Of a DNA stretch of 64,000 nt, positions 16,631 through 28,809 are shown piece by piece; position 1 is the stretch's first letter; every line of letters begins with the position of its first letter. The DNA lies in contig NZ_CP089468.1 in assembly GCF_021233435.1 (NCBI RefSeq), forward strand, positions 2,232,001-2,296,000, read 5' to 3'. The translations under genes were made by a program, and so were the position numbers. The notes below the pieces were generated by a model. The model did no database searches and had not been told where the DNA came from. It was given only the letters and a program-made list of their open reading frames with translations. This stretch comes from Halobacterium noricense. GTDB lineage: Archaea > Halobacteriota > Halobacteria > Halobacteriales > Halobacteriaceae.

Positions 16631-17800
16631 TTACTCGTAGTTCGACGGCGCGACCTTCTCCCGCTGGGTCTGGAGGCGGTCGTCGGGCAGCTGGAAGTAG
16701 TTGTTCGACTCGACGAACGTCTCCTGGCCGAAGTCGCTCAGCAGGAAGTTGATAAACGCGGCTTCCTTCCGGGAGGTGTCCTGCCACGTGTACGCGTGGA
16801 GGTCGCGGGACAGCGGGTAGTCCTGCGCGCCGAGGTTCTCGCCGTAGGAGTACGTGGTGCCGTCGATGACGAGGTCGAGCGGCGGCGTGCCGCCGTCGGG
16901 CTCGACGAACGCCAGCGCGATGTAGGAGATGGCGTTGTCGGCCTGCGTAATCGCCTGCTGGAGCTGCTGGTTCTGGCCGAACCGCTGGTCGGGGCTGATG
17001 GCGGCGTTCGGGTCACCGAAGACGTTCGCGCGGAACGCGGTGTCGGTCCCGGAGCCCTCAGCGCGGCCGAGCGCGAGGATGTCGCGGTCCGGGCCGCCGA
17101 GCTCCGACCAGTTCGTAATCTCCTGGCGGTAGATGGAGCGGAGTTCCTCGATGGTAATCTCGGTGACACCGGCGTCTTTGATTTCGTTGCTGACGACGAT
17201 GGGCTGGCCGTCGACGCCGACCACGTGGTCGACGAAGTTGTTCAGCGTCTCCTCGGAGGGGTTGCTGCCGGCGAGTTCCGCCTGCGCGGAGGCGCTGGAG
17301 TCGCCGATGTCGACGCGGCCCTCCATGACGCCCTCGATGCCGGTGCCGGAGTGGCTGAGCGCGACGGTTGCGCGGAACGGCGGGTTCGAGCGTTCGCCGG
17401 TGGGCTCGTAGCCGTACTGGCTGGCGAAGTAGTCGGCGAGCCGCATGTCGGTGCCGTACTCGTCGGCCCACTCGGTCGGCCAGTAGTCTCCGTCGCCGGC
17501 TTCGGGGTTGGAGTTCCAGTAGCTCGCGCCGGTGTTCGTGATGGGGAACACCGTCGAGGAGCCGTCCGCGGTCAGCACGCTGGTGTCCATCTCGTTGGAC
17601 TGCTCGCCGGCGGTCGTCTCCTGGTCGCTGCTCGGGTCGGCAGTGGTCGGCTCGCTGGTGTCGCCGTCGCCGTCGCCCCCACTCGAACAGCCTGCGACCG
17701 TTGCGACGCCTGCTGCGCCGGCAGTCGCGATGAATTTCCGCCGCGATACGAGGTCGGACAGACGCGTCGAATCCTGCGCCATCACGTGAACGGAAGACAT
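16631..17800 (-). CDS. pstS: Phosphate-binding lipoprotein PstS
   Basis: 389 residues. It captures phosphate outside the membrane and hands it to PstC/PstA. The N-terminus carries a Tat-lipoprotein signal: SRRKFIATAG then lipobox TVAGC (Cys about 38), followed by an acidic Gly/Asp/Thr linker. Ligand-binding blocks DGSSTVFPIT, LSHSGTGIEG and AEGSGTDTAF are those of PstS. Start: ATG 17800 has a TATA at -28 to -34, but an internal ATG at 17782 (MAQDSTRLSD) is a credible alternative with its own AT-rich box. It heads the five-gene operon and diverges from an iron-type binding protein 145 bases away. Confidence 0.95.
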   Translation of the reverse strand: MSSVHVMAQDSTRLSDLVSRRKFIATAGAAGVATVAGCSSGGDGDGDTSEPTTADPSSDQETTAGEQSNEMDTSVLTADGSSTVFPITNTGASYWNSNPEAGDGDYWPTEWADEYGTDMRLADYFASQYGYEPTGERSNPPFRATVALSHSGTGIEGVMEGRVDIGDSSASAQAELAGSNPSEETLNNFVDHVVGVDGQPIVVSNEIKDAGVTEITIEELRSIYRQEITNWSELGGPDRDILALGRAEGSGTDTAFRANVFGDPNAAISPDQRFGQNQQLQQAITQADNAISYIALAFVEPDGGTPPLDLVIDGTTYSYGENLGAQDYPLSRDLHAYTWQDTSRKEAAFINFLLSDFGQETFVESNNYFQLPDDRLQTQREKVAPSNYE

Positions 17801-17834: not shown

Positions 17835-17917
17835 CGGCTGTGAGGTCGGCGTAGCCGTCTGTTTGTGAAAGTCTCCCACCGAGCGCTATATAGCCGTCCG
17901 GACGGAATCCAAACGCC

Positions 17918-17924
17918 TATATTT
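17918..17924 (+). promoter_or_regulatory. TATA box of the iron-type binding protein gene
   Basis: TATATTT lies 22-28 nt before the ATG at 17946. The distance implies a leaderless mRNA that begins at or near the start codon. Confidence 0.6.
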
Positions 17925-17925
17925 G

Positions 17926-17941
17926 TTTAGGCCAGCCTAAA
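17926..17941 (+). promoter_or_regulatory. DtxR/IdeR-type iron-box palindrome
   Basis: TTTAGGC-CA-GCCTAAA is a perfect 7-bp inverted repeat with a 2-base centre. It sits between the TATA box and the start codon of the siderophore-type binding protein. Seen directly: symmetry and position. Known: DtxR-family metalloregulators bind TTAGG...CCTAA-type palindromes, and haloarchaea carry such regulators. Inferred: iron-bound repressor blocks transcription of the downstream gene. Confidence 0.7.
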
Positions 17942-17945
17942 TTCC

Positions 17946-19169
17946 ATGAGCGAGAAACGTGAGCCGTTCACGCGACGACAGTACCTCAGGGGAGCGAGCG
18001 CAACGGCTGCCGCCGGCCTTCTCGCGGGATGCACCGACTCGGGGGACAGTAACGGCGACGGTAACGGAGGCAACGGCACGACCGCGAACACCGGGACGAC
18101 GAACCCCACGACGACCGACTCCTCGCTGACGGCGTCCCTCGCGCCGGTCGGCGACGTCACGTTCGACGGGCCGCCGGAGAGCGCGTTCGTCCTGTTCCCG
18201 CAGTACGCCGACATGGCCGTCGCGCTCGGGCACGGCGACGCCGTCAACTCCATCTACGTCCCGGAGATGTCGGGGACGACGATGAACCACTACTACGAGC
18301 GCCTCGACGGCGTCTCCTTCGACTGGGAAGGGCTTCCGGACCCCTTCGGAAACGGCATCCAGGAGGAGCAGCTGTACAACCTCGACAGCGACGTCCACTT
18401 CCTCGACCCCGCGTACCTCGTCACGCAGGACAACTGGTCGGTCGGGGACGCCGAGGACATCGCGGAGAGCGTCGGGCCGTGGTTCGGGAACTTCTACAGC
18501 GGCACCCACGACCAGCCGCCCGAGCAGTACCGCGACGACTACGAGTACTACACGCTCTGGGAGCTGTTCGGCCGCGTCGCCGACGTCTTCGGGGAGCGCG
18601 AGCGGTTCGAGGCGCTCCGCGAGATCCACGACGACCTCGTCGCGACCATCGAGGCCGACCTCCCGCCCGCGGAGGAGCGCCCGACCGCCGTCCGCGTGAC
18701 CTACTCGCAGGGCACCTTCTACACGTACCACCTCAACAAGCCCGGCTACTGGCTGGCGGATACCCGTCCACTGGGGGCCCACGACGCGTTCGCCGACCAG
18801 GACTGGTCGAGCCTCTGGGGGTCGGTCGGCTACGAGACGATGCTCGACGCCGACCCCGACGTCGTCCTCCACCTCTGGGGCGCGACGCCGAACTACGACA
18901 TGGCGTCGGTCCGCGAGCAACTCCGGAACAGCGACGCCGGCGGGACGCTGTCGGCCGTCGAGAACGACCGCGTCTACGCCTCCGGGATGCGCTACCAGGG
19001 CCCGCTGATGAACCTCTTCCAACTGGAGATGACCGCCAAACAGCTCTATCCCGACGTCTTCGGCGAGTGGCCCGACTACCAGGACGGCGACCACTACCCC
19101 GAGATTCCGGCCGACGAACAGCTGTTCGACCGCGAGCGCGTCGCCAGCATCGTCACCGACGGCGCTTGA
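17946..19169 (+). CDS. Iron/siderophore-type ABC transporter substrate-binding lipoprotein
   Basis: 407 residues. N-terminal Tat-lipoprotein signal: RRQYLRGASATAAAGLL then lipobox LLAGC (Cys about 30), followed by a Gly/Asn/Thr linker. The mature part has the periplasmic-binding-protein class III look: FVLFPQYADMAVALGHGDAV, a later TMLDADPDVVLHLWG, and NDRVYASGMRYQGPLMNLF near the end. That class binds ferric siderophores, haem or cobalamin. No permease or ATPase gene is adjacent, so it must work with components elsewhere. The operator in its promoter favours iron. Confidence 0.82.
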   Translation: MSEKREPFTRRQYLRGASATAAAGLLAGCTDSGDSNGDGNGGNGTTANTGTTNPTTTDSSLTASLAPVGDVTFDGPPESAFVLFPQYADMAVALGHGDAVNSIYVPEMSGTTMNHYYERLDGVSFDWEGLPDPFGNGIQEEQLYNLDSDVHFLDPAYLVTQDNWSVGDAEDIAESVGPWFGNFYSGTHDQPPEQYRDDYEYYTLWELFGRVADVFGERERFEALREIHDDLVATIEADLPPAEERPTAVRVTYSQGTFYTYHLNKPGYWLADTRPLGAHDAFADQDWSSLWGSVGYETMLDADPDVVLHLWGATPNYDMASVREQLRNSDAGGTLSAVENDRVYASGMRYQGPLMNLFQLEMTAKQLYPDVFGEWPDYQDGDHYPEIPADEQLFDRERVASIVTDGA

Positions 19170-28496: not shown

Positions 28497-28809
28497 TTAC
28501 TCCTAGAGAACCACAGTCCCTCGGGTTCTGATTAACTGTGGCAGCATTTTCTATATTACTGCACCAATACTCACCTTCGCTTGCTCCGTTCCTTGATGCG
28601 TTCCACCGGCGTACCACCGAACCGTAGGACGATTCACTGCTTAATGATGCCTGTGTGCGAGCACCTGGACACTCCAACCGCGAACCCGGTACGCCGTGAA
28701 GAAATACACACCTCCCTGCTACTGTAGATTCTCGTAGTACTCTTGACCACCCTAACTATTTAGGCCCAGTTGGAATGCGTGACGCGACAGTATTCGTGTG
28801 ATACCGACG
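28497..28809. other. Gene-less right part of the island
   Basis: About 310 bases without a supported gene. A 7-bp inverted repeat (CCACAGT...ACTGTGG, 28511-28536 area) is visible. The composition returns to GC-rich by about 28780. Short frames here have no recognisable features. Confidence 0.4.

Follow-up and report, generated by a model that had tools for sequence, protein, structure and literature searches.

A putative one-dimer iron box between the TATA element and the start codon of a solitary substrate-binding protein gene in Halobacterium noricense

A 16-bp palindrome located in front of a solitary ABC substrate-binding protein gene is very probably the operator of a metal-dependent iron-uptake regulator of the DtxR family, which would repress the gene when iron is replete and which is most likely of the Idr type. 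The gene lies in what is here called the window, the whole stretch of DNA analysed (64,000 nucleotides, G000:C1:2232001-2296000 of a 3.3-Mb genome). From the sequence we infer that the regulator binds here, that its metal is Fe2+ and that it represses instead of activating, and likewise the choice among three encoded regulators and the substrate of the binding protein.

On the forward strand, the promoter starts with an A-rich, BRE-like stretch (GGAATCCAAACGCC, positions 17904..17917), followed by the TATA element TATATTT (17918-17924), 22-28 nt before the ATG, and a single G at 17925; for haloarchaea, CGAAA has been proposed as the BRE (PMC4983044). The palindromic operator TTTAGGC-CA-GCCTAAA (17926-17941, assigned to neither strand) comes next, with arms at 17926-17932 and 17935-17941 around the CA at 17933-34. 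A gap of four bases, TTCC (17942-17945, forward strand), leads to the ATG, which begins at 17946. The operator thus adjoins the core promoter elements, lying directly between TATATTT and ATG and spanning -20 to -5 relative to the latter. Direct reading confirms the TATA element, the 7-2-7 palindrome and the start codon described in an earlier note on this DNA, with exact coordinates and symmetry. The iron-box core TTAGG...CCTAA claimed there is also present: residues 17927-17940 (TTAGGCCAGCCTAA) form a perfect inverted repeat, TTAGG-N4-CCTAA, and are a candidate iron box of the DtxR/IdeR type.

The distance from the TATA element to the ATG and the placement of the palindrome both fit a leaderless start, so transcription probably begins with a leader of 0-5 nt; in Haloferax volcanii, 72% of the protein-coding transcripts are leaderless (PMC4983044). 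The earlier note had a bound repressor covering this start. Such coverage is likely only by way of a wider protein footprint, on which it depends; the box itself, spanning only -20 to -5, stops short of the start base. When iron is plentiful, a dimer of the Fe2+-loaded regulator would occupy TTAGG-N4-CCTAA just downstream of the TATA box and block recruitment of RNA polymerase, or its start, at the leaderless or nearly leaderless promoter. Under iron shortage, the regulator would be released and the extracellular lipoprotein made; this would capture a ferric siderophore and deliver it to a shared FecCD/ATPase importer, the genes of which lie elsewhere (G000:C1 2.77-2.78 Mb) and also carry boxes.

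Palindromy alone was rejected as evidence, as the window contains 166 perfect inverted repeats with 7-bp arms and spacers of 0-8, twelve of them with AT-richer arms. The core is much rarer: TTAGGNNNNCCTAA (TTAGG-N4-CCTAA) is present once in the window and not at all in 100 dinucleotide shuffles. Pattern searches with the reversed pattern as control gave 13 sites versus 4 in the genome itself and 306 versus 33 across 26 genomes of the family, with counts above control in 25 of the 26; G002, where an Idr orthologue is present, has a single site, which is not above control. The abundance of 7-bp repeats is what would favour an inverted repeat arisen by chance, or a hairpin or terminator in the RNA. 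Either has a negligible probability, because the exact core and its position are kept in orthologues across nine genera, a 2-nt loop is poor for a hairpin and no T-run follows; the box, lying upstream of the probable leaderless start, would also be absent from the message. On sequence grounds, the box is far beyond chance once the rarity of its core and the footprint in the orthologues are combined.

That footprint was traced in two sets of genes. The first comprises 15 named orthologues from nine genera, with identities of 58-84%. A perfect core stands 3-6 nt before the ATG in 13 of them; in the Halogranum orthologue the core has one mismatch, and the exception is the Halohasta orthologue, which lies inside a tandem array. 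Among 29 loci from the family genomes, a set that overlaps partly with the named orthologues (some are the same organisms), the core is perfect in 21, has one mismatch in one and is missing from seven. The seven box-less loci hold several tandem copies of the gene, and in four of them a box precedes another start. When 36 distinct homologous promoters are aligned, the box ends 3-6 nt from the ATG in 34; of the remaining two, one has its ATG 1 nt further on and one is a second, upstream copy. A TATA-like T-A-T precedes the box by 7-9 nt and an A-rich stretch precedes it by 14-16 nt, with A in 29 of the 36 at offset -15 from the core. The palindrome extends beyond the bases used for selection, into both the flanks (T before the core in 32 of 36, A after it in 35 of 36) and the unselected core bases (C at position 6 in 27 of 36, G at position 9 in 30 of 36), while the central 2-4 bases of the core vary. 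A protein-binding operator lying within a promoter would be expected to look like this.

The same alignment bears on the sense of the regulation. The regulator might instead activate, or work both ways alongside other DtxR proteins: several paralogous regulators are present in the genome, and in Halobacterium the targets of Idr1 and Idr2 reportedly include activated genes. Activation or dual action is improbable all the same, as a protein bound between the TATA element and the start codon, at the near-fixed spacing of the 36 promoters, would hinder the polymerase.

Second copies of the box, often degenerate, are found at a distance of 29-38 bp (upstream regions L078, L079, L088 and L039; L016:6400 and 6429), in several promoters beyond the TATA element and BRE. 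Several relatives have such a copy about 36 bp upstream; it was sought in the window and is absent before the window gene. At 28751-28764 of the window, CCTAACTATTTAGG consists of the same half-sites facing outward, with 4-bp spacing. Five to seven paralogues of the binding protein stand head to tail in arrays at L043:1-6334, G005:C6:296312-304939 and G019:C3:165138-173769; the array of G005 has a single TTAGG-N4-CCTAA box at its front (C6:304966-304979).

The gene behind the box (17946..19169, forward strand) encodes a lipoprotein-type ABC substrate-binding protein of 407 amino acids, with an N-terminal R-R motif and the lipobox LLAGC. It matches PF01497 (E 3e-8, 33.7 bits against a cut-off of 27.5), and the closest solved structures, both by sequence profile and by fold, are iron or siderophore binding proteins. 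Foldseek searches with the AlphaFold model (mean pLDDT 79) gave an E of 4e-13, and many iron-siderophore binding proteins matched with values under 1e-9, the best matches including 5cr9, 3tny (ferric schizokinen) and YiuA; Haloferax volcanii is a predicted maker of schizokinen (PMC11349517). Binding proteins of the FhuD, CeuE, YfiY and FepB type share the Pfam family PF01497 and the fold with the window protein, which is however only 11-21% identical to them in fold alignments and is encoded by a solitary gene. All NCBIfam matches are far below cut-off and provide no confident substrate name. The family does not fix the ligand, since PF01497 and its fold class also hold heme and cobalamin binders; a ferric siderophore is suggested by regulon membership and by the context of the paralogues. 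Two paralogues from the same genome, 36% and 35% identical, both lie in siderophore-type loci next to FecCD permease/ATPase genes. The product of the window gene thus probably binds a ferric siderophore or iron chelate.

No permease or ATPase gene is located beside the window gene, which stands alone between a minus-strand pstS-type gene and a trkA-type gene that follows. The pstS-type gene (PF12849) starts at 17800, 126 bp from the box, and it could be supposed that the box serves phosphate control of this opposite-strand neighbour. The chance of this is minimal: the box lies beside the start codon of the substrate-binding protein gene, not that of pstS, and it is kept in orthologues from Haladaptatus, Halogranum, Halorussus and others that have no pst neighbours. 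The connection with pst was rejected on this gene context. The Halorussus and Haloarchaeobius orthologues each come after genes for a FecCD permease and an ATPase.

The 13 genomic sites cluster before iron-type transporter genes, as the earlier note would have predicted from a genome scan. The genome contains five PF01497 genes, and three of these are preceded by a site (P about 5e-7 for such an overlap, with 13 sites and about 3300 genes): the window gene, the head of an SBP-FecCD-ATPase-DUF7260 operon and a gene standing alone beside a FecCD/ATPase pair. In the retrieved loci, on the strand that was scanned, no near-match is present upstream of the other two, one of which is near the third FecCD gene; two of the three FecCD genes belong to site-bearing operons. 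The fourth and fifth sites precede the ATPase and the FecCD gene of the aforementioned pair, and the sixth an operon of the Fe3+ ABC type, with an FbpA-like SBP, a permease and an ATPase. Sites seven and eight are before a gene with DUF7552/DUF7551 and before the gene of a thioredoxin-reductase-like FAD enzyme. Site nine, with the identical 16-mer, precedes a FilR1-like regulator gene and is directly upstream of the SBP-FecCD operon. Of the remaining four, two precede an RGP-like gene, one a gluconate-dehydrogenase-3/GMC oxidoreductase pair, and one is near a gene for a CopD-like membrane protein. The RGP-like protein, the CopD-like membrane protein and the GMC oxidoreductase have no obvious iron role, which counts against the iron reading. 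The assignment of the orphan binding protein to iron, made in the earlier note, is supported by the clustering of the sites and by the retention of the box in the orthologues.

Several of the other boxed genes recur in similar surroundings. DUF7551/DUF7552 and DUF7260 are found beside siderophore-type transporters or under the box (L014:3185-3991, L019:12171-12974, L043:6369-8092, L047:60-584), which suggests a so far unrecognised role of these proteins in iron uptake. The gene for the thioredoxin-reductase-like FAD enzyme, boxed in the genome of the window, has FecCD and ATPase genes as neighbours in both Halorussus and Haloarchaeobius (L018:4127-5032, L044:803-1741, L047:476-1510), and its product is a candidate ferric-siderophore reductase.

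Three clear PF01325 proteins of the DtxR family are encoded in the genome, and there are two PF02742 hits. The first is a long SirR/MntR-like regulator (G000:C1:690211) with an FeoA/SH3-like tail and best matches to MntR/DtxR equivalog models, the second a short Idr-type regulator (G000:C1:695294-695719) and the third another short DtxR protein near 2.7597 Mb (G000:C1 2759691). The same operator might be read by the first or the third of these, with Mn2+ or several metals. Apart from the presence of three such proteins and the fit of the long one to the equivalog models, published work gives this some weight: a SirR-type repressor has been proposed for iron uptake genes of Haloferax mediterranei (PMC11218638) and several DtxR regulators have been reported in haloarchaeal networks (PMC11349517). 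We consider it rather unlikely. The boxed genes encode ferric-chelate transporters, not manganese (NRAMP/ZIP) transporters. Orthologues of the short protein at 2.76 Mb are missing from several site-rich genomes, G003, G004, G005 and G019, in all of which an Idr-type orthologue is present. The SirR/MntR-like protein is disfavoured as reader of the box by a related yet distinct palindrome of its own, TTAGACNNGTCTAA, which suggests a different half-site; seven genomes have it 12-14 nt ahead of the start of this gene, and the control gave no match (L048:1474-1487, equal to G000:C1:690184-690197, and orthologues in G003, G008, G014, G015, G016 and G017). The gene for this regulator is probably autoregulated through that half-site.

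Idr-type orthologues (71-100% identity) are found in all site-rich genomes bar one incomplete assembly, G015, which is 87% complete and has 11 sites with no close Idr match. Behind the Halohasta array lies the gene of a PF01325 regulator (E 1e-14) that is closest to the Idr-type protein of our genome. The variant palindrome at the long regulator, the missing 2.76-Mb type, the near-universal Idr type in site-rich genomes and the Halohasta relative together favour the Idr-type protein at G000:C1:695294-695719 as the most likely reader of the box; that a regulator of this kind would bind it is deduced from the co-occurrence of regulator orthologues and sites.

The DtxR/IdeR iron box of Actinobacteria, TTAGGTTAGSCTAACCTAA, has the same half-sites TTAGG/CCTAA with 4-bp spacing and lies over iron-uptake promoters. 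Compared with it, the window site is a one-dimer, 14-bp unit only, in an archaeal promoter (TATA/BRE, probably leaderless). The full 19-bp, two-dimer arrangement was looked for at the window site, where the bases at an offset of +5, CCAGC CTAA ATTCC, form no second unit, and our claim is therefore limited to the 14-bp type; a single-dimer site has been described for IdeR, and the redefined single-dimer 14-bp consensus proposed for IdeR/DtxR is TTAGGNNNNCCTAA (PMC8464063), with which the window core is identical. For the fhu genes of Haloferax volcanii, a ferR signal and increased expression under iron starvation have been reported (PMC11349517). A haloarchaeal regulon of ferR and the DtxR family was predicted by Leyn and Rodionov in 2015, as cited in PMC11349517. 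Compared by the description given there, it is alike in having a signal before fhu siderophore ABC genes and several binding-protein paralogues per genome; our genome and the window gene may fall outside the 2015 set. Idr1/Idr2, SirR and TroR of Halobacterium salinarum and Haloferax volcanii (PMC11349517) share the regulator family and the iron theme, a likeness at the family level.

Earlier publications already cover the regulator family, the motif unit and signals of this sort in front of haloarchaeal fhu genes, and the window site is a further example; less settled is the set of other genes that share the box. Tentatively, and at somewhat less than an even chance, haloarchaea would have a compact one-dimer iron switch between TATA element and leaderless start, with boxes defining a wider regulon (DUF7551/DUF7552, DUF7260 and the thioredoxin-reductase-like FAD enzyme, maybe freeing siderophore iron) and single-operator arrays in which up to seven tandem binding-protein paralogues share one permease. 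Reading a 16-bp signal by eye can be enough to place an isolated binding-protein gene in iron uptake. Haloarchaeal iron control would thereby gain a sharp operator, a 14-bp one-dimer box at a fixed distance from a predicted leaderless start, and the box points to other genes, a few of them uncharacterised, as likely parts of archaeal siderophore uptake.
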